From positions 1 to 45,636 of IMG/VR virus record IMGVR_UViG_3300022745_000053: a stretch of DNA of 45,636 nt, one strand, 5' to 3'. This stretch comes from a virus. Below, in pieces: positions 2,450-43,849 of this stretch; the stretch's first letter is position 1, and each line of letters starts with the position of its first letter. Position numbers and translations under genes: made by a program. A model generated the notes under the pieces. The model was not told the DNA's origin. It was given only the letters and a program-made list of their open reading frames with translations, and ran no database searches.

Positions 2450-4056
2450 TGGACCTCGGCGGATCGTTCCTCGGCCCTATTCAGACCATGCAGCAACTCG
2501 CTGCGGGTGATGTGAATATGGGCTACACCCGCGCCCTGACGCAGGACGCGATGCAACGGGTTGCGACAAGCAAACTGGGTGAAGAAAAGAACCGGTTTGA
2601 ACTTGATGTGATGAAGCGTCAGCAAGCGATGGAGATGCAAGTCCAGGAGCAGATGCGTCAGCGTGCTTTGAACCAGGGTGGGTTCCGTCAACCCGGTATG
2701 GCACCCCCGACAGGGATGCCAAGGCAAGGCGGGATGCCCGGACAAGGTGGAGCGCAGCAACAGCCGCAGATGAGTCCTGTCGATGCCTTGAGCAGTTCGT
2801 TCCAGGGGCACTTCGACGATCAACTCGCGTTCGCTCAGGCGTTCGCTGGACGGGGAATGCTGGGTCGCGCCAACGACATCATGTCGGCCTTGGTGAAGGA
2901 CTACAACCAGTACACCGGGGCACTGAAGCACGTTTCCGATATGGGCAAGGATCGGACTGAGCAAGCCCGCAAAGGATCCGAGTACATCAACAACGTCGTG
3001 GGTGGAATCAAGAACCAGAGTGACCTGGACTCTGCGCGCACGTTGTTCCAGCAGCAGAACCCTGGTGTCGAGGTGCCCTACTTCCTCGACATACCCTACG
3101 CGCAATCCAAGCCTGTTCTGGATCGCCTGGCCGGTAGCAGCAAGGAGGGTGTGGCAAGGCTCGAATCTAAAGCCAAGCTGGAAGAACTGCAAGCCAAAGC
3201 TGCGGCGGAACGGGTCACGGCTCGGTTGAACACTGCTCGCGCACAACTCGAGGAGATGGAGCTCGCCGCTGCCAAAGATGCGCAGGATCGCGCTAGGAAG
3301 AACGGTGAAGCGATTCCGTCCGCAAAGCATCCCGGTAAGACCATGGATGCCACTCAAAACGCTAACAAGCCTGCTACAACCAAGGGAGCCGCTGCTGATC
3401 GAACCCGTGCTTACAACATCCATGAGGCATTCTCGCAAGCAAGCACTGACCTTCTGAACGTGACGGACGTTCCTGCTGGGACCACGCTGAATATGTTCGC
3501 GGGTTTGGCGGGTAAGACTGGGTCATCCTTGACTGAAGGGCTGACTGCGGCAGTGGCTCGCAAGTTCAGCAGTGCTGACCAGCGGCAAATGCAACAAGTG
3601 GTTGCGGGTCTTGACCAAAATATGAGTCGGGCACTTGGCGGCGGCTATGCCACCTCTGGCGCGAAACACTTGATCGAGGCGTACAAGGAGCAAGTGGCCC
3701 GATCCGGGGACAATGCTGGTCCTGCGACCGCGATGTTCCTCGCCAGGATGAAGCAGGAACTCACTGTTCTCAGCAAAGCGTTTTCCACCCATCCAGGGTC
3801 CAACCCCCAGCAAGCGGAACAGCAACAACAGTACTTGAAGGATCTGAACGATCGCATCCCGTTCGACGTTCGGGATGTACTCGCGGCAGGGCGCAGGGGT
3901 CGCAAGACCATTGGGGACGATATGCTGCAAAAGTTCGGTGTCAAGCGCGAAGACATTCAAGAAACTGTCACGGTCGGCGGCAAGACTTATTCGCGTCCCC
4001 AGGGCTTCACCGATGAGCAGTGGACCGCGTACAAGAAAGCGCAGGGTGCGGAATGA
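2449..4056 (+). CDS. ejection protein candidate (P22 gp20 position)
   Basis: A 535-residue Gln/Ala/Met-rich protein with a long helical region around residues 220-290 (ESKAKLEELQAKAAAERV) likely to form a coiled coil, and a Pro/Gly/Gln-rich linker near residues 80-105. Position second in the three-gene ejection block and length close to P22 gp20 (471) support an internal virion protein released into the host. No enzymatic motif is visible, in particular no lytic transglycosylase signature. The last four bases overlap the next start (ATGA). Confidence 0.55.
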   Translation: MDLGGSFLGPIQTMQQLAAGDVNMGYTRALTQDAMQRVATSKLGEEKNRFELDVMKRQQAMEMQVQEQMRQRALNQGGFRQPGMAPPTGMPRQGGMPGQGGAQQQPQMSPVDALSSSFQGHFDDQLAFAQAFAGRGMLGRANDIMSALVKDYNQYTGALKHVSDMGKDRTEQARKGSEYINNVVGGIKNQSDLDSARTLFQQQNPGVEVPYFLDIPYAQSKPVLDRLAGSSKEGVARLESKAKLEELQAKAAAERVTARLNTARAQLEEMELAAAKDAQDRARKNGEAIPSAKHPGKTMDATQNANKPATTKGAAADRTRAYNIHEAFSQASTDLLNVTDVPAGTTLNMFAGLAGKTGSSLTEGLTAAVARKFSSADQRQMQQVVAGLDQNMSRALGGGYATSGAKHLIEAYKEQVARSGDNAGPATAMFLARMKQELTVLSKAFSTHPGSNPQQAEQQQQYLKDLNDRIPFDVRDVLAAGRRGRKTIGDDMLQKFGVKREDIQETVTVGGKTYSRPQGFTDEQWTAYKKAQGAE

Positions 4057-6269
4057 GTCCTGAACAATGGCTGGCATCCCAAAGCAAACCGGAAGCCACC
4101 GCTTCCGGTGCTCAGTCGCCTGAAGAGTGGCTTAAAGCGAACCCCAATCCCCCGGCATTGATGGGTCCTAAAGATCGCCCGTCGGATGTGACGGGTCAGG
4201 TCGGATCGCAACTCAAAGAGACGTTCGGCTGGGATCCTCAGCGAATGCACGCCCCCGATATGAGCGGTGCAATGACCAAGGGTGGATTGCCAGGTGTCGC
4301 CATTGGCGCAGGAATTGGATCAATTGGTGGACCCGTCGGGGCGTTGACGGGCGGGCTGACCGGTGGGGTTATCGGAGCCGCTGGCGGCGGCATCGAAGAG
4401 CTACTCAGTTCTGCCGGGTTCGGCCCTGGGACTGCAATGATGGGGGGTATGCTCACACCCGGGGGAGGACTTGCTCAAAAGGGTGCGCAGAAGCTCACCA
4501 GCAAACTGCCCGATCCCACCTGGGGCGACATTGCGAGGTTCACCCCTGGTCTTGGGAAGTACCTGCGGGGCATCGATGAGCGAGCTGCGGAACGGACTGC
4601 TGAGAAGTTCGTATTGAACCGTGGAGCACCGAGTCGACAAGCCGAGTCGCAAGTCGGTGAGTCGTTGCGTCGGGGAAGCGAGTCCTCGCGTGAGCAGTTC
4701 CGCCTGGGTGCTGAAGAGCGTAAGCGTGCTATCGAGCAACGATACCAGCAGCAGTTGCAGGAACAGCAGCAGCGCGTCTCAGCACTGCGCGGGGAGATGA
4801 GTAAAGCCAAGCAGGCCCAGCTTGAAGCAACCAACGCGACCGCTGCTGAACTGTCAGGGTTGAACCCGGTGCCACCGAGTGAACTGGGTCGGGATGCCAT
4901 GGGTGTGCTGACCCAGCGTCTTGAGAATCTGCAAGGTGAGCGTTCTCGAGAGTACGAGCGTTTGTTTTCAGAGTACATCGACTTTGCTCGCACTGAGCAG
5001 GCTGCTGGTCGCCCCTGGCAATCGTCACCCACTGGCAAGAAAACCCTGGACAATATCCGGGGGCTGATGGAACCGTCGAAGGAGATGGGCAAGGTACGTC
5101 CCATGACGACGGAGGAAGAAAAAGCGGTCAAGCAAGTCCTCGATGAAATCGAAGGTGTCCGTACGGTCAAGGTGGAAGAACCTTACCCCGAGACTAGGAC
5201 TACCAAGGAACCGCTGGACATTCGAGGTATTGACAACGTAGTGCGCAAGCTTGGTGAAGCCGCCAAGGGGCAACCCCCTGAAGGCTATCAGGCAATCAAC
5301 AAGAACCTTGCACTGAAGATGAAGAAGATGCTCAGTGAAGGTCTGTACGAATGGGCACCCGCAGGCAGTGCTGCCAAGCGTTCGTACCGTGAAGGTTCTG
5401 AAAAGATGGAAGCCTTTGTCGACTCGCAAATCGACAAGGTGACTCGCACCAGCTCCGACATCCGTGGCAAGTACACCACGGACCCTCAGAGCGTGACCTC
5501 CACCTTGTTCAAGTCCCCTCAGTCGGTCAAAGACTTCAAGGAAGCACTTGGAGGTGACAGCGAAACGGTGCGCCGCCTCGCTACCCAGCACGTGAACAAC
5601 CAGTTGCACGCACTCGGTGGCAATCCTGCCAAGGTGGAGCGGTGGTTGACCGACCCCAAGAACAAAGAGTGGATGAAAGAAGCCGGCATCGAGGGTCACG
5701 GTCAATCGTTCTTGGGGAACTTGAAAGACTTGACCCGGCGTGCAGAGGGTGCAGGAAAAGGCGTTGCGGCAGGTGAGAAGAAACTCGGTCGAGACGCACT
5801 GCAAGCCCGTGACGCTGCAATCGGTGAGTCCAAGACCCGCGCCCTGGAGCAAGTGCGCAAGGAAGCGTCTGCCTATGAGCGTCGGATGAGTGACGCGATC
5901 AATGCCAGCAAGTACCCGGAAACGGCACTTGAGAACCTTCTGAACAGCGGGTCCAAGAAGTCGATCCAGACCATCGCGCAACTGCTGGACGAGGGTGGGC
6001 GCAAGGCAATGCCCGACGCTGTGCGCCAGTATATGTCTCGCGGCGGTGCTTCGTCCCTTGCAGACCGCTGGAACAAGGTGAAACCCATGCTGGAACATGG
6101 CAAACTCATGGGTGCCGACGACATTGCGAAACTTGACGCGGATGTAACCAAAGCCATCGAAGCACTGCGCAAGACCCCTGCCGGCAAAACGCGCCGCAAG
6201 GTGAATGACCTGGCGGTGCGGATCGCAAGTAAGATCGGCGGAACCTACGCTGCGAACGAGGAACTATGA
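4053..6269 (+). CDS. large ejection protein candidate (P22 gp16 position)
   Basis: A 738-residue protein; I take the ATG at 4053, which overlaps the previous stop (ATGA), over a longer in-frame reading. Residues about 75-125 form a Gly/Ala/Ile-rich stretch (GAGIGSIGGPVGALTGGLTG), a plausible membrane-inserting segment. Residues about 205-270 and the C-terminal third are strongly helical with coiled-coil character. P22 gp16, which partitions into membranes, is the functional analogue by position. No peptidase or muramidase motif is recognised. Ends in an ATGA overlap with the ATP-grasp gene, so that gene is translationally coupled to virion genes. Confidence 0.6.
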   Translation: MSPEQWLASQSKPEATASGAQSPEEWLKANPNPPALMGPKDRPSDVTGQVGSQLKETFGWDPQRMHAPDMSGAMTKGGLPGVAIGAGIGSIGGPVGALTGGLTGGVIGAAGGGIEELLSSAGFGPGTAMMGGMLTPGGGLAQKGAQKLTSKLPDPTWGDIARFTPGLGKYLRGIDERAAERTAEKFVLNRGAPSRQAESQVGESLRRGSESSREQFRLGAEERKRAIEQRYQQQLQEQQQRVSALRGEMSKAKQAQLEATNATAAELSGLNPVPPSELGRDAMGVLTQRLENLQGERSREYERLFSEYIDFARTEQAAGRPWQSSPTGKKTLDNIRGLMEPSKEMGKVRPMTTEEEKAVKQVLDEIEGVRTVKVEEPYPETRTTKEPLDIRGIDNVVRKLGEAAKGQPPEGYQAINKNLALKMKKMLSEGLYEWAPAGSAAKRSYREGSEKMEAFVDSQIDKVTRTSSDIRGKYTTDPQSVTSTLFKSPQSVKDFKEALGGDSETVRRLATQHVNNQLHALGGNPAKVERWLTDPKNKEWMKEAGIEGHGQSFLGNLKDLTRRAEGAGKGVAAGEKKLGRDALQARDAAIGESKTRALEQVRKEASAYERRMSDAINASKYPETALENLLNSGSKKSIQTIAQLLDEGGRKAMPDAVRQYMSRGGASSLADRWNKVKPMLEHGKLMGADDIAKLDADVTKAIEALRKTPAGKTRRKVNDLAVRIASKIGGTYAANEEL

Positions 6270-7573
6270 ACGTCTTGCTGCTTGACCCAGCGGGTGCCTT
6301 GACTGACTTCGGGATGCGGTGCATCTCTGAAGGTCATAGCGTCAAGATGTGGATCCGCCCGGTCCGGGGAGAGCATTCCAAGATCGCACGCGGGATCATC
6401 CCCCGAGTCCCGGACTGGGAGCCGCATATGCGCTGGGCTGACATCATCGTGCTGTCGGACAATGCGTATGAGATGCACCGGCTTGAGAAGTACCACGATC
6501 AGGACTTCCCGATCTTCGGCACCAATCTGCTGGGGTCACGCCTGGAGCTCGACCGGCAGTACGGTATGGACATCATGGAGCGGGCTGGTCTGAACGTCAT
6601 GCCGTCGCAGGAGTTCCAGACCTACAACCAAGCGATTGAGTTCGTCAAAGCCAACCCGCGCCGGTTCGTCTCCAAGCCTTCGGGTGACGCAGACAAGGCT
6701 CTGTCCTACGTATCGTCATCTGCTGCCGACATGATCTTCATGCTCGAGAAGTGGAAGAAGCAAGGCAAGAACAAGTACAACTTCATCCTTCAGGAGTTCG
6801 TCGGCGGCATCGAGGTTGCTGTGGGCGGCTGGGTTGGGCCGGCGGGGTTCTCGAAGAGCGTACTCGAGAATTGGGAACACAAGAAGTTGATGCCAAGCAA
6901 CTACGGGTGCAATACGGGCGAGCAGGGGACCGTTGTCAAGTACGTCAAAGAGTCCAAGCTTTTCGAGGACACCTTGAAGAAGTTTGAAGACTACCTGGTA
7001 TACATCGGACACCGGGGTTACGTCGACCTCGCCTTCATCATCGACAAGAAGGGACAGCCTCGCCCCTTGGAGTGGACCTGTCGGCCAGGCTGGCCACTCT
7101 TCAACATCCAGCAGAGCCTGCATAAGGGTTCGACCGTGCAGTGGATGAAGGACTTGTTGGACGGCAAGGACACGCTCAAGGTCAAAGACAAGACCGCCAC
7201 GGGTGTCGTGATCCCGATTGGCGACTACCCCAAGTCGCGCACCACGGGTCGGGACCATTCGGGCTTCCCGATCTACGGGCTTGAGGGTGACGACAACCTG
7301 CATCTGTGTGAAGTGATGCTGGGCAAAGCACCTCACATAGTCGACGGTGAGGTGAAAGAGATTGAGTGCCTGGTGACTGCCGGGGACTACGTGGCGGTTG
7401 CAGTGGGCCTCGGTTCTACGGTAGCCGACTCAGCCCATGAAGCGTACCAACTGGTCAAGACCGTGGACATTCCCGAATCGATCAACGTGCGCGATGATGT
7501 AGGTGAGCGTTGCAAGAGTCAGATCCCAGAGCTGCAAAAGTTCGGGTACATGACTGACTGGGTGTACGAGTAA
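6266..7573 (+). CDS. PurD-like ATP-grasp ligase
   Basis: A 435-residue protein with the plan of phosphoribosylamine-glycine ligase (PurD): an N-terminal Rossmann-like half (MNVLLLDPAGALTDFG), an ATP-grasp half with FVSKPSGDADKA (Lys137 as the nucleotide-binding Lys) and LQEFVGGIEVAV (residues 175-186), then GYVDLAFII and PLEWTCRPGWP (residues 251-277), matching the PurD metal-binding block that usually reads EFNCRFGDPE. The Glu is kept, but the usual Asn is Thr and the Asp-Pro-Glu is Trp-Pro-Leu, so the acceptor may not be glycine. No other purine gene is present. It is coupled by ATGA to an ejection gene and by TAATG to a zinc-motif gene, which suggests a virion- or host-modifying amide-bond ligase rather than purine supply. 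That role is inference. Confidence 0.8.
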   Translation: MNVLLLDPAGALTDFGMRCISEGHSVKMWIRPVRGEHSKIARGIIPRVPDWEPHMRWADIIVLSDNAYEMHRLEKYHDQDFPIFGTNLLGSRLELDRQYGMDIMERAGLNVMPSQEFQTYNQAIEFVKANPRRFVSKPSGDADKALSYVSSSAADMIFMLEKWKKQGKNKYNFILQEFVGGIEVAVGGWVGPAGFSKSVLENWEHKKLMPSNYGCNTGEQGTVVKYVKESKLFEDTLKKFEDYLVYIGHRGYVDLAFIIDKKGQPRPLEWTCRPGWPLFNIQQSLHKGSTVQWMKDLLDGKDTLKVKDKTATGVVIPIGDYPKSRTTGRDHSGFPIYGLEGDDNLHLCEVMLGKAPHIVDGEVKEIECLVTAGDYVAVAVGLGSTVADSAHEAYQLVKTVDIPESINVRDDVGERCKSQIPELQKFGYMTDWVYE

Positions 7574-7896
7574 TGGGTCGCGCAGACTTTTGGCAAAGTG
7601 GCGATTGGAACACCGTATGCTTTGAGTGCGGGCGTAAGCGCAAGGCATCGACTCTCAAGCGCCACTGGCAGGGATACTTCGTATGCCCGGAGCACAACGA
7701 GGCGAGACACCCCCAGGACTTCGTGCGGGGTGTGCAAGACCCCCAGACGCCACCCTGGACTCAACCCATGCCGGCGGATCAGTTTGTAGCAGTCTGTTCC
7801 CCAAACCAGCAATCTGCGTACGCTGGGTACGCTGTTCCTGGATGTGTGGTGGCTGGGTTTATCAGTCCAGCCTTTGATCCTCAAGTAGGGGTTTGA
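7573..7896 (+). CDS. zinc-motif protein, paralogue 1
   Basis: A 107-residue protein with a CxxC-X18-CxxH motif (CFEC...CPEH) in residues about 17-41, followed by HPQDFVRGVQDPQTPPW. The GDWN-x-VC-x-xCGRKRKAS-x-LK-x-HWQGY core recurs in the protein at 8923-9237, so the two are paralogues. A small treble-clef or zinc-ribbon fold is likely. I recall similar short proteins beside tail genes in many phages, without a known function. It overlaps the ATP-grasp stop and is followed two bases later by the tail fibre gene, so the context is adsorption and tail assembly. Confidence 0.7.
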   Translation: MGRADFWQSGDWNTVCFECGRKRKASTLKRHWQGYFVCPEHNEARHPQDFVRGVQDPQTPPWTQPMPADQFVAVCSPNQQSAYAGYAVPGCVVAGFISPAFDPQVGV

Positions 7897-7897
7897 T

Positions 7898-8926
7898 ATG
7901 GCAAGCACGACTTTTGTTGACGGAGTGACGAAGATCATTTCGTCCTGGCTGAACGATGTGAATGCCACGGTGTACAGCATTCTGGGCAACGGGACTGTAT
8001 CTCCCCCCGATAAAGCCACTGCGCGGACGAACCTGGGCGTGCCCGCCCTGGACGGTACTGGAGCGACAGGAACCTGGCCTGTCAACGTCACCGGTTCGGC
8101 AGGGTCTAGTGCCTCCGCAACCACGGCAGTTTCCCTTGCTGGTGGAACGACTACGACTCCCACACTTGTCGCAGGAAACGCGGCAATCCTTGATCAGCAA
8201 TACGGTAGGCTGGTGACTCTGACCTACTCCAGCGCGGGTATTTACGAACTCCAGCACAACGTCAACTACAACGGAACCACAAGCCAGTACACTTTGAAAA
8301 ATGACGGGTGGGGGGCGGCCCTGGTCCTGAAAGACGGTTCGCTTTCGTTTAAGAGTTCAAACACTACCGGCTTGCCGTCAGCGCAGGGGGCGGTTGTCCC
8401 AATGGCTACGGTGTTTACGGCAACCGCGTACTCAGGAAGTGGGGTTGCGAGTGTGTATGTGGGAAACTCCGCTGTCACCGGGATTACGCTGTATCAAGAT
8501 GGGTCGCAGACCAACTACAACTTCGGGGCCGCATCCGGGTTTAACTTCATAACCTTCGGACGATCCTTTGTCCCGGTTGGATCGATTACCCAGTCCGGGA
8601 CAACTGGGGTTGCATACAACACGACTTCAGACTATCGACTCAAGGCTACGCCGGGTGCGCTAACCGGTTCTGGTGCATTCATTGATGCACTGCGTCCGGT
8701 GACTTGGACTTGGATCCCCGACGGAACTCGAGGGGTTGGGTTTATCGCGCATGAGGTTCAGGCTGTCAGCCCTGGCTCGGTCCACGGGGAGAAGGATGCC
8801 GTGGACAGCGAAGGCAAACCGATTTACCAATCCATGGAATATGGATCGGCTGAGTTCATCGCTAACATCATTGCTGAGGTTCAAAACCTACGACGCCGTG
8901 TTGCGGCCCTTGAGGCTCGACCGTGA
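7898..8926 (+). CDS. tail fibre with C-terminal S74 chaperone domain
   Basis: A 342-residue fibre protein. The N-terminus (STTFVDGVTKIISSWLNDVN) resembles attachment ends of podovirus fibres, and ATARTNLGVPA is a common fibre repeat. The C-terminal ~100 residues match the intramolecular chaperone of endosialidase (peptidase S74): TTSDYRLK with the candidate autocleavage Ser at residue 244, ALRPVTWTW, GFIAHEVQAV, then a terminal helix (EVQNLRRRVAALEAR). In this family the domain drives trimer folding and then cuts itself off. The middle is beta-rich with no recognised enzyme. The stop overlaps the next start as GTGA. Confidence 0.85.
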   Translation: MASTTFVDGVTKIISSWLNDVNATVYSILGNGTVSPPDKATARTNLGVPALDGTGATGTWPVNVTGSAGSSASATTAVSLAGGTTTTPTLVAGNAAILDQQYGRLVTLTYSSAGIYELQHNVNYNGTTSQYTLKNDGWGAALVLKDGSLSFKSSNTTGLPSAQGAVVPMATVFTATAYSGSGVASVYVGNSAVTGITLYQDGSQTNYNFGAASGFNFITFGRSFVPVGSITQSGTTGVAYNTTSDYRLKATPGALTGSGAFIDALRPVTWTWIPDGTRGVGFIAHEVQAVSPGSVHGEKDAVDSEGKPIYQSMEYGSAEFIANIIAEVQNLRRRVAALEARP

Positions 8927-9237
8927 GGGAAGGTCCGTATACCCCCGGTGACTGGAATGCGGTGTGCTTCCGGTGTGGGAGAAAACGGAAAGCTTCAGAA
9001 CTGAAAAAACACTGGCAGGGCTACTATGTTTGCCCAATGCACTGGGAACCTCGGGAAGCCCAGGATTTTGTAAAAGCCGTTCCCGATAACCAGACACCCC
9101 CGTTTGCCCAGCCCAAACCTGTGGATTTGTTCATCGGGATCACAAATCCTCTCGAGACTGAAACAAGCGATTCGTTTTACGGCAACTTCGACTACATTTT
9201 GACTGAAGGTGGGGAAACCATCTTCACGGAGAACTGA
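8923..9237 (+). CDS. zinc-motif protein, paralogue 2
   Basis: A 104-residue paralogue of the protein at 7573-7896, starting at a GTG that overlaps the fibre stop. It keeps GDWNAVCFRCGRKRKAS, KKHWQGYYVCPMHW and QDFVKAVPDNQTPPF, so the CxxC-X18-CxxH zinc site is intact. The C-termini of the two copies differ (acidic and aromatic here). The arrangement zinc protein, fibre, zinc protein, spike suggests a zinc protein/fibre module was duplicated. Function unknown. Confidence 0.7.
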   Translation: MREGPYTPGDWNAVCFRCGRKRKASELKKHWQGYYVCPMHWEPREAQDFVKAVPDNQTPPFAQPKPVDLFIGITNPLETETSDSFYGNFDYILTEGGETIFTEN

Positions 9238-16180: not shown

Positions 16181-17583
16181 GCTCCCCGTGATGCCCGATA
16201 CTCTTTGATGGCATTTCGCAACGCCGCCTGCGTTTGAGCCTTCGAGTCGAGCGCCAATGCTTGTGCCTGGTCCAGGGTGTTGGCGCACAGGATGCGGTGA
16301 CAGATCACCGGCACCCCTTGCCCCTGGCGGCGAATCCGCGCATTGAACTGGTCATGCAGGTCCAGGCTCCAGGTCAGACCGTACCAGACCAACGTGTGCC
16401 CCTTGGATTGCAACCCGTCAACCCCATGGCCCATCGAGGCCGGATGACCGATCATCAACGGACAGTCTCCCGACTTCCATCGTGCCATGGCATCGTTGAG
16501 TGCCTTTTCGCTTTTGCACTCGGTCAGGTTGATGGGGCGCAGTGCAGCGAACTTCTGCATGATGCGCTCGGCATCGGACCGATAGGCGTAGCTCAACAGG
16601 ATCGGTTGACCCTGGCACTCTTCAATGATGTCCTCAAGAGCCTCAAGCTTGAGATCGTGGATCGCCTCCCACAAGGGCATCCCTGCAACGGGATACATGG
16701 CACCGTTGCTGAACTGGAGAAGCTTGTTCGTCAACGCGGCTTGATTGAACACCTCAATGTCGGTACCGGTGTCCAAGCGTAAGAAAAACTCCCGCTCCAT
16801 CGTGTCGTACATGGACCGCAGGTTGTCGGTCAACTCGCACTCGACATTGTTGATGATCATGTCGGGAAGCTTGTTGTAGTCCTCCGCGCTCATCTCGAGC
16901 GTCATGTCCCCGATCAACCCCTTGATGATGGATTCGGTGTCGTCGTACGCCACCTCGCGGTACGGACCGGCCTTCTTGTAGAACCGGGTCTTGAACGCGG
17001 TCTTGCTGGTGCCCAGACGCTTGCCTTCATCCAGGACAAGGAATTGCCCGTGAAGGTCCTGGTAGCCGTTTGATGCCGGCGTGCCAGTCAGCCCGGTGCG
17101 CCAGATGAAGTGGGGCAGGATCTTCTTGACCGACTTCACCCGCTCAGTGGCTGAGTTTTTCATCTTGGAGAGCTCATCCCAGACCAACCCGTTTGCTGGC
17201 AACGGTAGCGACTTGCTGATCCAATAAGTGTGCAGGCTCTCGGCAAGCCAGCCCAATACATCGTAGTTGACCAGATACACATCGGCAGGTCGCAGCAACG
17301 CTCGAGCACGCTGGTCCTTGGTACCGGTCACCAGGCTGAACCGCAGATGCTTGGTGTGCTCCCACTTCAAAGCCTCTTGCCGCCAGACCAGCCTGCACAC
17401 GCGGATCGGTGCCACGATGATCACCGCGCTTAGATGACCACAGCCGATCAGGTACGCGATGCTGGTCAACGTCACCACCGTCTTGCCCAGACCCATGTCC
17501 AGCCAGAGGGCCGAGTGGGGGTGTGTACATTGGAACTCGACCGCGCGCTGCTGGTAATCGTGCAGATCAGTCGCGGTTCTCAT
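16177..17583 (-). CDS. SNF2-like DEAD/DEAH-box helicase
   Basis: A 468-residue superfamily 2 ATPase: Walker [10 protein letters not shown] (residues 29-37), motif Ia IIVAPIRV, Walker B variant [10 protein letters not shown] (around 134-143, DE followed by LS instead of AH), motif [12 protein letters not shown], and motif [11 protein letters not shown] near residue 414. Phage homologues sit in replication operons and are thought to remodel DNA or help recombination and replication restart. It overlaps the methyltransferase stop by one base (TGATG). Confidence 0.88.
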
Positions 17584-18377
17584 CAGATGTTGTCCCAGGC
17601 TTCGATGAACGCTTGCGCGACTTGCGGGACAATCGCGTTTCCGTAGGCGCGCAGGCGTCCCACGCGGGCGGGAGTCCCATGAGCCAACGGGAATGTGCCG
17701 GGTTCAACCGGCCTCCAGAATCCATCCCGGCAGTGGAGCCAGTCAGCAGCTCGCCAGTGGCCGTTAGTCGGGTTTGGCCGACCAGATTCGCCTGCCTCGG
17801 CAGTTGATCCAGGCGACTTCTTCCATCCGGGCGTTCCGTTGCCATCCCCGGAGTGTCCTTCCAATCTCTTGTCGATGGTGTGACCCACCCAGTAAAGTCG
17901 CTGTCGGATGTGTGGCGCACCGACGCCCGCAGCGCAAAGATCAGCCGCCCCGACGGTGTAGCCCGATGCTTCCAGGTCAGCTCGTACAAGGTCGATCCAC
18001 GCAAGGCCAAATTTGCTCGCAACTTGTTCTCCAAAGACGACTGGAGGCTGGCACTGCTCGATAAGCCAGTGGAACGCGGGCCACAGGTGCCGCTCGTCAG
18101 TAAACCCAGCACCTTTGCCTGCCGCGCTGAAAGGCTGGCATGGGTAGGAACCTGTCCATACCGGACGATCATCGGGCCATCCTGCGAGGCGCAGGGCGTA
18201 GCTCCATACTCCGACGCCGGCAAAGAAGTGGCATTGGGTGTAACCAGCCAACTCGGAAGGTCTGATATCTTCAATGGATCGTTCATCGACTACCCCTGGT
18301 GCAATGTGACCCGCCGCAATCAGGTTGCGCAGCGTCTGCGCAGCGAACGGGTCAATCTCGTTGTAATAAGCGGTCAT
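17583..18377 (-). CDS. C5-cytosine DNA methyltransferase
   Basis: A 264-residue enzyme that would methylate cytosine in double-stranded DNA using SAM. Motifs: FFAGVGVWS (SAM-binding motif I, residue 51 on), SYPCQPFS (motif IV, catalytic Cys80), GEQV (motif VI position, 116-119), [13 protein letters not shown] (motif VIII) and YGNAIVP (motif X, 245-251). [11 protein letters not shown], the usual motif II, lies before motif I, at residues 6-16. Motif VI lacks the usual Asn of ENV. No restriction enzyme is adjacent, so it most likely protects phage DNA from host restriction. Coupled to VRR-NUC by an ATGA overlap. Confidence 0.88.
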
Positions 18378-41831: not shown

Positions 41832-42523
41832 TGGCAGCACCTACAATCGTTCAGACTGTTGCGCCAACCAATCCCGTAACTCACGCAACAACCCTCGCAG
41901 TCTCAATCACGGGTGTCACTGCGGGAAACACTTTATTGGTAGTCGCAGTCCATAATAATTCTTCCGGTGTAGTTGGCGGAATCCTCAACAGCGTCACCGA
42001 TAGTAACGGGACAGGTTGGACCGTCTACAACGATGCTGAAACCAACAACCCGCCAGTCGGCGTTTCAATGGCAACCTTGGTCAATGTTGCCGCAGGTACA
42101 CACAATTTGACGCTCAATCTGAGTGTTGACGCTTATTGCAATGCGAAGATTTACGAACTCACCCCCTGCACCGTCGACTCGTCTTCTGTGGTTGCAGTAG
42201 GTGCGACTCCAACTGCCACCAGTGTTTCGATTACAACGGTTGCGGCTCAGACCTTGGTGTTTGCTTTTCTAGGTGTTCTTCTTTCAGGTAGCAACACCAA
42301 TTTGGGAATCACTGATCCCCCCACCGGGTGGACAAGTGATGCAGTGGCACAAAATACGACTTTGATGTATCCCGAATTTGAGTATGCCCGTCGAACCACG
42401 ACGACTGCGGGAACTTACTCGGCGTCGTGGACTTGGACTGCTGGCAATATGTCAAACTCTGTTGCTGCAATTGCATTTGCAGGAACTGCAACCGGTACTT
42501 CTGTGATGTACTTACGCGCATGA
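41831..42523 (+). CDS. beta-sandwich virion protein
   Basis: A 230-residue protein of alternating strands with many Thr, Val and Asn (NTLLVVAVHNNSSGVVGGIL, TLNLSVDAYCNAKIYELTP, SVSITTVAAQTLVFAFLG). The pattern resembles jelly-roll or Ig-like phage structural proteins. Base composition is slightly more AT-rich than its neighbours, which may mark a later arrival. The stop overlaps the glycosyltransferase start (ATGA). Confidence 0.55.
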   Translation: MAAPTIVQTVAPTNPVTHATTLAVSITGVTAGNTLLVVAVHNNSSGVVGGILNSVTDSNGTGWTVYNDAETNNPPVGVSMATLVNVAAGTHNLTLNLSVDAYCNAKIYELTPCTVDSSSVVAVGATPTATSVSITTVAAQTLVFAFLGVLLSGSNTNLGITDPPTGWTSDAVAQNTTLMYPEFEYARRTTTTAGTYSASWTWTAGNMSNSVAAIAFAGTATGTSVMYLRA

Positions 42524-43254
42524 CCCCTCAGATCATCGCCCCCGACTACGGACGCCACAACCAGCAGATGGACGAGGCGATCCGACGCCTTGACACCATG
42601 GGTGCCTACAAGGATCTTTCCACGATCATCCTGGTGCCGGCGTTCGGTAGTGTACCGACCAAGTGTGTCGCGTCGTGGTGGAACCTGTTTACAGCTCCGA
42701 ATGGCAAGTTGTACCGGATGTGGGCGCTCGGGATGGAAGTTGGCGAGGCGTTTAGCCAGTCCATCGCAAACATCCTGGCCCACCCGGACCTGTCGAAGTT
42801 CAAGTACCTGCTGACCCTCGAGCACGACAACGTACCCCCTCCCGACGGGCTTGTGAAGCTTTTGTCCCGGATGGAAGCGCACCCCGAGTACGCCTGCATC
42901 GGCGGCTTGTATTGGACCAAGGGTGATGGTGGGGTGCCTCAAATCTGGGGCGACCCAAAAGACCCGGTCATCAACTTCCGCCCACAGCGTCCGGTGCCGG
43001 GTCAACTGGTCGAGTGCGTCGGAACGGGTATGGGGTTCAACCTCTGGCGGCTCGAGATGTTCAAAGACACCCGACTGCGTCAACCGTGGTTCAAGACCCT
43101 CAACGGTGCTGAAGGTCAAGGTGTCGGGACGCAGGATCTATACTTCTGGGGTGATGCTCGGAAGTACGGCTATCGATGTGCCATCGACTGTGATGTGCTG
43201 GTCGGGCACTACGACTTGGAAGGCAAGTTCGGACCCCCGGACACAACTTGGTGA
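42520..43254 (+). CDS. GT-A family glycosyltransferase
   Basis: A 244-residue enzyme candidate; the ATG at 42520 overlaps the previous stop. STIILVPAFGSV opens the nucleotide-sugar domain, FKYLLTLEHDNVPP holds the DxD-equivalent (EHD, 101-103), then CIGGLYWTKGDGGVPQIW, VGTGMGFNLWRLEMF and GTQDLYFWGDARKYG with a final GHYD. This is the layout of a family-2-like glycosyltransferase. Inside the virion cluster it may glycosylate a capsid or fibre protein or a host surface sugar; the acceptor is unknown. Confidence 0.75.
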   Translation: MTPQIIAPDYGRHNQQMDEAIRRLDTMGAYKDLSTIILVPAFGSVPTKCVASWWNLFTAPNGKLYRMWALGMEVGEAFSQSIANILAHPDLSKFKYLLTLEHDNVPPPDGLVKLLSRMEAHPEYACIGGLYWTKGDGGVPQIWGDPKDPVINFRPQRPVPGQLVECVGTGMGFNLWRLEMFKDTRLRQPWFKTLNGAEGQGVGTQDLYFWGDARKYGYRCAIDCDVLVGHYDLEGKFGPPDTTW

Positions 43255-43258
43255 AAAT

Positions 43259-43849
43259 GTGGAAAATCAAGATTCATCTGCTGGCAATGCTGTCGTACCG
43301 GTCGCAGCAACTGAGCCTGTGGGCAGCGCGCCGATCAAGCTCGATCTGGGATGCGGAAAAAATAAGGCGGCAGGCTTCACTGGAGTCGATGCGCTCGCCT
43401 TCGAAGGTGTCGACCAAGTCTTCGACCTCCGACAGACTCCGTGGCCTTGGGCTGACAACTCGGTTGATGAGGTCCATTCTTCCCACTTCGTCGAGCACCT
43501 CACCGGGGCGGAACGTATCCCGTTCTTCAACGAACTCCATCGAGTCTTGAAACCGGGGGCGCAGGCTCGTATCATCACACCCCATTGGTCCCATGAGCGT
43601 GCCTATGGCGACCCTACGCACCAATGGCCCCCGGTCTGCGCCTGGACGTACTTCTACCTTGGCAAAGCCTGGCGCGATGTGAACGCCCCACACGCAGGGT
43701 ATACCTGCGATTTCGATTATGTCCTGGTCGGTACCCACGACCCCAACGACACGCACGTTGCGTTCAGGACGCAGGAAGTCAAGCAAGTCATGATGAGTCG
43801 CAACGTCAATACCGTGACGGACCTCATCGCAACCCTGACCAAGAAATAG
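43259..43849 (+). CDS. SAM-dependent methyltransferase (type 11)
   Basis: A 196-residue class I methyltransferase starting at GTG 43259 behind GGTGA, four bases after the glycosyltransferase stop. KLDLGCGKNKAAGFTGVD is motif I plus the acidic ribose-binding residue, DNSVDEVHSSHFVEHL is motif II/III, and FNELHRVLKPGAQARI is the typical type-11 helix-strand. Pairing with a glycosyltransferase suggests methylation of the transferred sugar or of the same protein. Confidence 0.82.
   Translation: MENQDSSAGNAVVPVAATEPVGSAPIKLDLGCGKNKAAGFTGVDALAFEGVDQVFDLRQTPWPWADNSVDEVHSSHFVEHLTGAERIPFFNELHRVLKPGAQARIITPHWSHERAYGDPTHQWPPVCAWTYFYLGKAWRDVNAPHAGYTCDFDYVLVGTHDPNDTHVAFRTQEVKQVMMSRNVNTVTDLIATLTKK

Follow-up and report, generated by a model that had tools for sequence, protein, structure and literature searches.

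Aquifex PurD (2YW2), a glycinamide ribonucleotide (GAR) synthetase, has been modelled with ATP held by Lys103, Lys143, Glu185, Glu192, and Lys214 and with glycine contacted by Asp212, Arg287, and Glu292; the binding mode of phosphoribosylamine in PurD is not known (PMC8880213). Brown et al. reported in 2011 that two 'extra' PurD-like proteins, Haloarcula rrnAC0307 and Halorubrum Hlac_1553, are 'not actual glycinamide ribonucleotide synthetases', as they are missing GARS_N and the Asp of R[LF]GDPE (RLGDPE) and have a divergent N-terminal loop (PMC3261824). Virus surveys, for their part, list phage purD/GART among purine auxiliary genes (PMC11097641, PMC11360552). Here, we analyzed a gene for a PurD-like ATP-grasp ligase (the ligase) in the IMG/VR virus record IMGVR_UViG_3300022745_000053, a 45.6-kb record with podovirus-like virion genes, taken over its whole length of 45,636 nucleotides (the window).

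We propose, with a probability of about 0.6, that this protein is an active ATP-grasp carboxylate-amine ligase that descends from PurD, is not a GAR synthetase, and acts late, its target most likely being a peptide, a protein, or a surface molecule.

A PurD-related fold with an altered glycine site

The ligase matched the PurD structure 2yw2 in a sequence search of PDB (3.5e-13), as well as Pfam GARS_A (1.9e-7) and GARS_C (2.4e-5, under that model's cut-off). The NCBIfam purD model (TIGR00877) also matched it, with an E value of 7.4e-18, yet the score was 64.6 bits and the cut-off of 288 was not reached. The PurD match covered ligase residues ~74-417, and no GARS_N match was detected by the Pfam scan in the N-terminal ~75 residues. 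The AlphaFold2 model, which was predicted from an input of 67 window/locus sequences, had a predicted local distance difference test (pLDDT) score of 95 and a predicted template modelling (pTM) score of 0.92. When this model was compared with PDB using Foldseek, ranks 1-15 were all PurD (2yw2, template modelling [TM] score 0.76, 19% identity), followed by the L-amino-acid ligases BacD/YwfE and then by PurK, biotin carboxylase, and PurT. The E values for these proteins, about 1e-15 to 1e-30, place the ligase in the ATP-grasp fold, and a BacD-type ligase is not its closest member, as all PurD entries rank higher. The likeness to PurD from end to end that the first-pass annotation described thus holds for the predicted structure, which superposes on PurD over its whole length, and is limited in sequence to the region given above, without GARS_N or the GGREH loop.

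Active-site residues were compared among 49 phage representatives sharing <70% identity, aligned with eight PurDs as controls, and were also counted in 64 cellular sequences from the sister family described below. The PurD block ExNxRxGDPE was present in 8/8 PurD controls, and every phage ligase (49/49) reads ExTxRxG[WY]P instead: E, T, R, G, and P are invariant, and the second Asp of PurD is replaced by W or Y throughout. Relative to PurD, Asn285 becomes Thr, Asp290 becomes Trp/Tyr, and Glu292 becomes Ala/Leu/Ile/Thr, while Glu283 and Arg287 are kept; in the window, the three replacements are Thr, Trp, and Leu. The changed Asn, Asp, and Glu noted in the first-pass annotation are therefore a property of the whole family and not a chance feature of one sequence. 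It should be noted that the phage loci were picked by TGE[QM]GT, a stretch that formed part of the search patterns, and not by the altered block, whereas the cellular loci were picked by patterns including the altered block or TGE[QM]GT. The block had been taken for the acceptor site; since the modelled PurD places the metal and glycine there (PMC8880213), it corresponds instead to a changed donor site.

The residues that bind ATP and Mg were retained nearly without exception (equivalents of Aquifex Glu100, Lys143, Glu192, Lys214, and Glu283), with two conservative changes, Lys103 to Arg and Glu185 to Gln. Because these residues and Arg287 are kept and the other glycine contacts are changed, we infer that the ATP chemistry was preserved and the recognition of glycine replaced. 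The N-terminal loop differs as well: GGREH was found in 7/7 full-length PurD controls and in 0/49 phage ligases, which carry family-specific residues in this region (D7 in 48/49, R18 and H24 in 49/49 each), and N66 is also conserved. This loop is probably the acceptor side of PurD, and a change on that side may thus reside there. The gene is an uninterrupted open reading frame (ORF) under purifying selection, with 0.14 nonsynonymous (dN) and 1.31 synonymous (dS) substitutions per site in a comparison with an 80%-identical relative.

Distribution in phages and cells

A profile built on eight relatives from the initial search retrieved at least 559 viral contigs, and a second profile at least 579; both counts are lower bounds, and many of the contigs are short. 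Among GenBank phages, one true relative was found, the uncultured phage MW202796. The remaining GenBank matches, at about 20-28% identity, come from unverified 'phage' records and resemble ordinary bacterial PurDs; they were rejected, although several served as PurD controls. PHROGs assigned the ligase to none of its families, and no close viral model was found in BFVD (best query TM 0.46). As the family is absent from PHROGs, BFVD, and nearly all GenBank phages, it appears to be unstudied.

In a genome collection, likely prophage copies with 36-45% identity were found in Paraburkholderia, Glaciimonas, and others, and at one such locus (L176), the ligase is surrounded by capsid, fibre, and endolysin genes. 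A distinct cellular set, with 30-34% identity, was found in Micrarchaeota, Diapherotrites, Woesearchaeota, Altiarchaeales, a haloarchaeon, Patescibacteria, Parvularculaceae, Woeseiaceae, and more. It has E204, R97, Q176, E219, and T271 in common with the phage ligases, and position 276 is aromatic in both. As the scan patterns held part of this signature, a profile-selected sample, free of the bias towards the block, was drawn from the Micrarchaeota: the protein was found in 29/146 genomes, and ExTxRxG[YV]P was present in 25/25 of the sequences read. In a maximum-likelihood tree, the whole clade was separated from PurD with an ultrafast bootstrap (UFBoot) value of 100, and the cellular set was also supported at 100 (the control rows L257, a wrong ORF, and L258, a partial one, were left out). 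The value close to the root of the clade was 47, too low to tell which way a transfer between phages and cells would have gone. The protein had been put forward as a possible new phage activity; the existence of this sister family, to which two haloarchaeal proteins set apart in 2011 probably belong (PMC3261824), shows that it is not confined to phages. The cellular family is likewise not wholly new, given that earlier notice. What is new, as far as our tools show, is the extent of the cellular family, the phage branch, and the fixed signature.

A canonical PurD above the cut-off was present in 5/8 cell genomes encoding the sister protein, a sixth genome having a match at 258.7 bits, and in 3/4 lysogen genomes; none was found in two tiny genomes, G007 and G012, both with the sister protein. 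The idea that the family replaces PurD in organisms without PurD was rejected, as the two coexist in those five genomes. The 258.7-bit protein (L255; Altiarchaeales genome G006, C1:960441-961775), the nearest to PurD in that genome, itself has YGSRGVS instead of GGREH, and its gene is separated from that of the sister protein by about 4 kb. The neighbours of the cellular genes include scattered metabolic genes, such as an NMN adenylyltransferase-like gene (L190) and other ATP-grasp ligases (L195, L245), as well as occasional N-acetyltransferase-like and methyltransferase-like genes.

Gene neighbourhood in phages

The 90 closest viral loci mostly share one gene order. A stabilisation protein comes first and is followed by a small gene of the tail or acetyltransferase-like type and by two further ORFs; next come a large ejection-like ORF of 450-1693 residues, the ligase, and a tail-fibre gene. 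In the window, the virion genes comprise a head-closure/stabilisation protein, ejection-like ORFs, an S74 fibre, and a beta-helix spike; a PolB-exonuclease/primase/SNF2/terminase set is also encoded. No second purine gene was found in a Pfam scan of 30 further ORFs and a purM search, in agreement with the first-pass annotation, and the homologs have no purine neighbours either. The overlaps of the ligase with both adjacent genes were also confirmed (Table 1); the upstream one likely couples translation of the ligase to that of the preceding ORF, and a start/stop overlap with the large ORF recurs among the loci. This ORF, which has no Pfam match in the window, occupies the place upstream of the ligase in most loci, and the small downstream Cys/His protein occurs in the clade of the window and in a few further ones. 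Across the relatives retrieved by the profile search, the altered block is kept, and the neighbours are mostly kept, although not in all phages.

Table 1 Features of the ligase, its surrounding genes, and the associated HExxE genes (positions are those of the window unless a locus is named)
Feature	Position	Strand	Basis or remark
PurD-like ATP-grasp ligase gene	6266..7573	+	435 residues, uninterrupted ORF
N-terminal loop region, residues 1-27, D7/R18/H24 replacing PurD GGREH	6266..6346	+	alignment
E94 to R97 (ATP/Mg site), corresponding to Glu100 and Lys103 in PurD, with Lys replaced by Arg	6545..6556	+	49/49 phage, 64/64 cellular
K137, equivalent of ATP-binding PurD Lys143	6674..6676	+	49/49 phage, 64/64 cellular
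E204-H205-K206, PurD Asp212 to Glu; ATP Lys214 kept	6875..6883	+	E, K 49/49 phage and 64/64 cellular
TGEQG, PurD loop NTGGMG to [NA]TGE[QM]GT	6914..6928	+	E219 49/49 phage, 64/64 cellular; Gly in PurD
EWTCRPGWPL, altered metal/glycine block (E269 T271 R273 G275 W276 P277 L278)	7070..7099	+	alignment
R409-D-D411-V-G413, PurD C-terminal RxDIG kept	7490..7504	+	R, D 49/49 phage, 64/64 cellular, PurD 8/8
ATGA overlap, ligase start with 3' end of upstream ORF	6266..6269	+	sequence
TAATG overlap, ligase end with downstream ORF start	7571..7575	+	sequence
Large ejection-like (internal virion protein-like) ORF, 749 residues	4020..6269	+	role inferred from position
Small Cys/His (zinc-motif) protein, 107 residues	7573..7896	+	cluster d40, 7 members
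Tail fibre with S74 chaperone domain	7898..8926	+	Pfam PF13884 6.7e-8; PHROG tail fibre
HExxE genes	L098:1540-1905, L239:11273-11674, L189:3245-3685, L208:11955-12356, ~60 viral loci (L285-L364)		

Some relatives of the ligase are accompanied by a small protein of ~125 residues (121-130 in one further phage clade, where its gene directly adjoins the ligase) with an invariant HExxE and a later conserved His. Pfam gives no match over the cut-off for this family. Its gene was also found beside or near the ligase in a Patescibacterium (L239), in Micrarchaeota (L189, L208), and in prophages. A reverse search with the HExxE protein alone brought up 80 viral loci, of which 65 had the gene called; a PurD-like ATP-grasp lay next to it in 33/65 and within three genes in 40/65, these ATP-grasps mostly belonging to more divergent subfamilies. 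The HExxE model (pLDDT 94) matched SprT, MATCAP, and other zinc metallopeptidases weakly, none significantly. In addition, several of these viral contigs (L285:4291-5667, L287:4384-5676, L291, L292, L298, L329, L355, and L361) encode a further ATP-grasp-like family just after large ejection-like and HExxE genes; its members score about 30-60 bits against the ligase profile, have no Pfam match over the cut-off, and carry the motifs ExKD and IDPTCRxGSPPSE.

At 73/138 loci, Gln (41) or Glu (32) is the last residue of the protein encoded directly upstream of the ligase, compared with about 10-18% of other ORFs, and Gly is enriched at positions -2/-3. This ending was observed with and without the ATGA overlap, in counts not corrected for the relatedness of the loci, and constraints from ribosome sites and overlaps may explain part of the excess. 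The upstream protein of the window (4020-6269) ends in NEEL.

Other features of the window lie outside these genes. Two paralogous small Cys/His proteins (7573-7896 and 8923-9237) flank the S74 fibre gene, each overlapping its upstream gene. Among the head-tail genes are a weak glycosyltransferase-2-like ORF (42427-43254) and an S-adenosylmethionine (SAM)-methyltransferase ORF (42923-43849; PF08241, 8.3e-7), which would give the virion cluster additional modification enzymes. On the minus strand, two nearly fully overlapping ORFs (17567-18286 and 17583-18377), one of which partly matches a C5-cytosine methylase (PF00145), possibly represent a frameshifted or split methylase gene.

Proposed activity and alternatives

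Judging from the active-site residues, the ligase very probably joins a different acid to a different amine than PurD does. ATP and Mg would be bound as in PurD; a carboxylate held by the retained Arg, R273, would be phosphorylated, and attack of an amine on the acyl phosphate would form an amide, as expected from ATP-grasp chemistry. An acid other than free glycine is probably used, because the pocket is rebuilt at the equivalents of Asp212 (now Glu), Asn285, Asp290, and Glu292, and probably also an amine other than phosphoribosylamine, because the N-terminal loop of PurD is gone. As the ligase is translated with ejection and tail-fibre genes, it would probably be made late. Its target, the weakest step of this proposal, would most likely be a peptide or protein belonging to the virion, or a molecule of the host surface, given the late virion genes and the peptidase-like partner in related phages; this pairing with the HExxE protein also favours an amide or peptide substrate.

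Several observations weigh against this proposal. The neighboring genes tell when and where the ligase is expressed, not what its substrate is, and phages L003 and L008 have different ligase surroundings. The fold similarity behind the peptidase assignment of the HExxE protein is weak (best E 0.1). Its gene is absent from the window and was found in 1/146 Micrarchaeota genomes, compared with the 29 that encode the ligase, so the pairing with the HExxE protein is not obligatory. A constant neighbor of the cellular genes was looked for, and none was found. Finally, with RxDIG and part of the NTGGMG loop retained, a phosphoribosyl-like substrate could still be bound.

The strongest alternative, which we regard as possible but doubtful, is that the ligase makes a small metabolite (e.g., an amino-acylated sugar, nucleotide, or cofactor), its position among virion genes setting only the time of expression. 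The substrates of PurD itself are small, RxDIG is kept, and the cellular sister family is free-standing and patchy, with metabolic neighbours here and there. In phages, however, the ligase has no conserved biosynthetic partner and is consistently placed between ejection-like and fibre genes, and the HExxE partner resembles a peptidase more than a metabolic enzyme.

A genuine GAR synthetase boosting purine synthesis as an auxiliary gene is very unlikely. PurD is the best match in both structure and sequence, and surveys place phage purD/GART among the purine genes (PMC11097641, PMC11360552), but the score falls far short of the purD cut-off, the Asn, Asp, and Glu of ExNxRxGDPE are lost in every member, as is GGREH, no purine neighbours are found, and most hosts and cells already encode PurD, the tiny genomes G007 and G012 being two in which no canonical one was found. 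The same low likelihood applies to a dead ATP-grasp serving as a structural or binding virion protein: the gene does lie within the virion cluster and the second metal ligand, Asn, is lost, but neither the ATP-site Lys and Glu nor the metal Glu varies among phages and archaea, and PurK and PurT are active although they also have no Asn at this position of the block. Reading the loss of Asn as inactivity was rejected, as the other catalytic residues are invariant.

Within the proposal of a late-acting amide-forming ligase, one specific version, by analogy with Pup conjugation, is that the ligase and, in many phages, the HExxE protein form a widespread two-part system that builds and trims an amide-linked modification on the large ejection protein encoded just before the ligase, by way of its C-terminal Gln/Glu; we consider this improbable.

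Members of the family should be left out of counts of purine genes. Surveyed phage purD/GART genes may belong to this non-GAR family, in which case a metabolic conclusion would be wrong, and such calls need rechecking. An active-site rewiring that is fixed across phages, DPANN archaea, and Patescibacteria offers an entry to new ligase chemistry, and the ligase is carried by culturable lysogens, namely, Glaciimonas immobilis and Paraburkholderia species.

Comparison with known systems

The ligase resembles PurD in its end-to-end fold, domain order, ATP/Mg residues, Arg287, RxDIG, and part of the NTGGMG loop, and differs from it in its score (64.6 versus 288), in the loss of GGREH, in the changes at Asp212, Asn285, Asp290, and Glu292, and in its virion-gene neighbours. 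The L-amino-acid ligases BacD/YwfE, BL00235, and RizA, which are amide-forming, have the next best solved folds. Trp332 has a key role in the substrate pocket of BacD (PMC6920838). With a TM score of 0.58 and 11% identity, however, BacD-type ligases are no closer to the ligase than other ATP-grasps. Phage-encoded ATP-grasps are also known from the amidoligase/ATP-grasp set of LUZ24-like phages (PMC3890496) and from the R2K family, which is predicted to modify proteins (PMC4431377, PMC7824862), but both belong to different ATP-grasp families, and those of LUZ24-like phages are early genes. Haloarcula rrnAC0307 and Halorubrum Hlac_1553, which were compared by description only, are chromosomal, unlike the phage ligase; they share with it the replaced Asp, the missing GARS_N, and the divergent N-terminal loop, and a haloarchaeal protein of the cellular sister family (L251) is 31% identical to the ligase over query residues 9-415.

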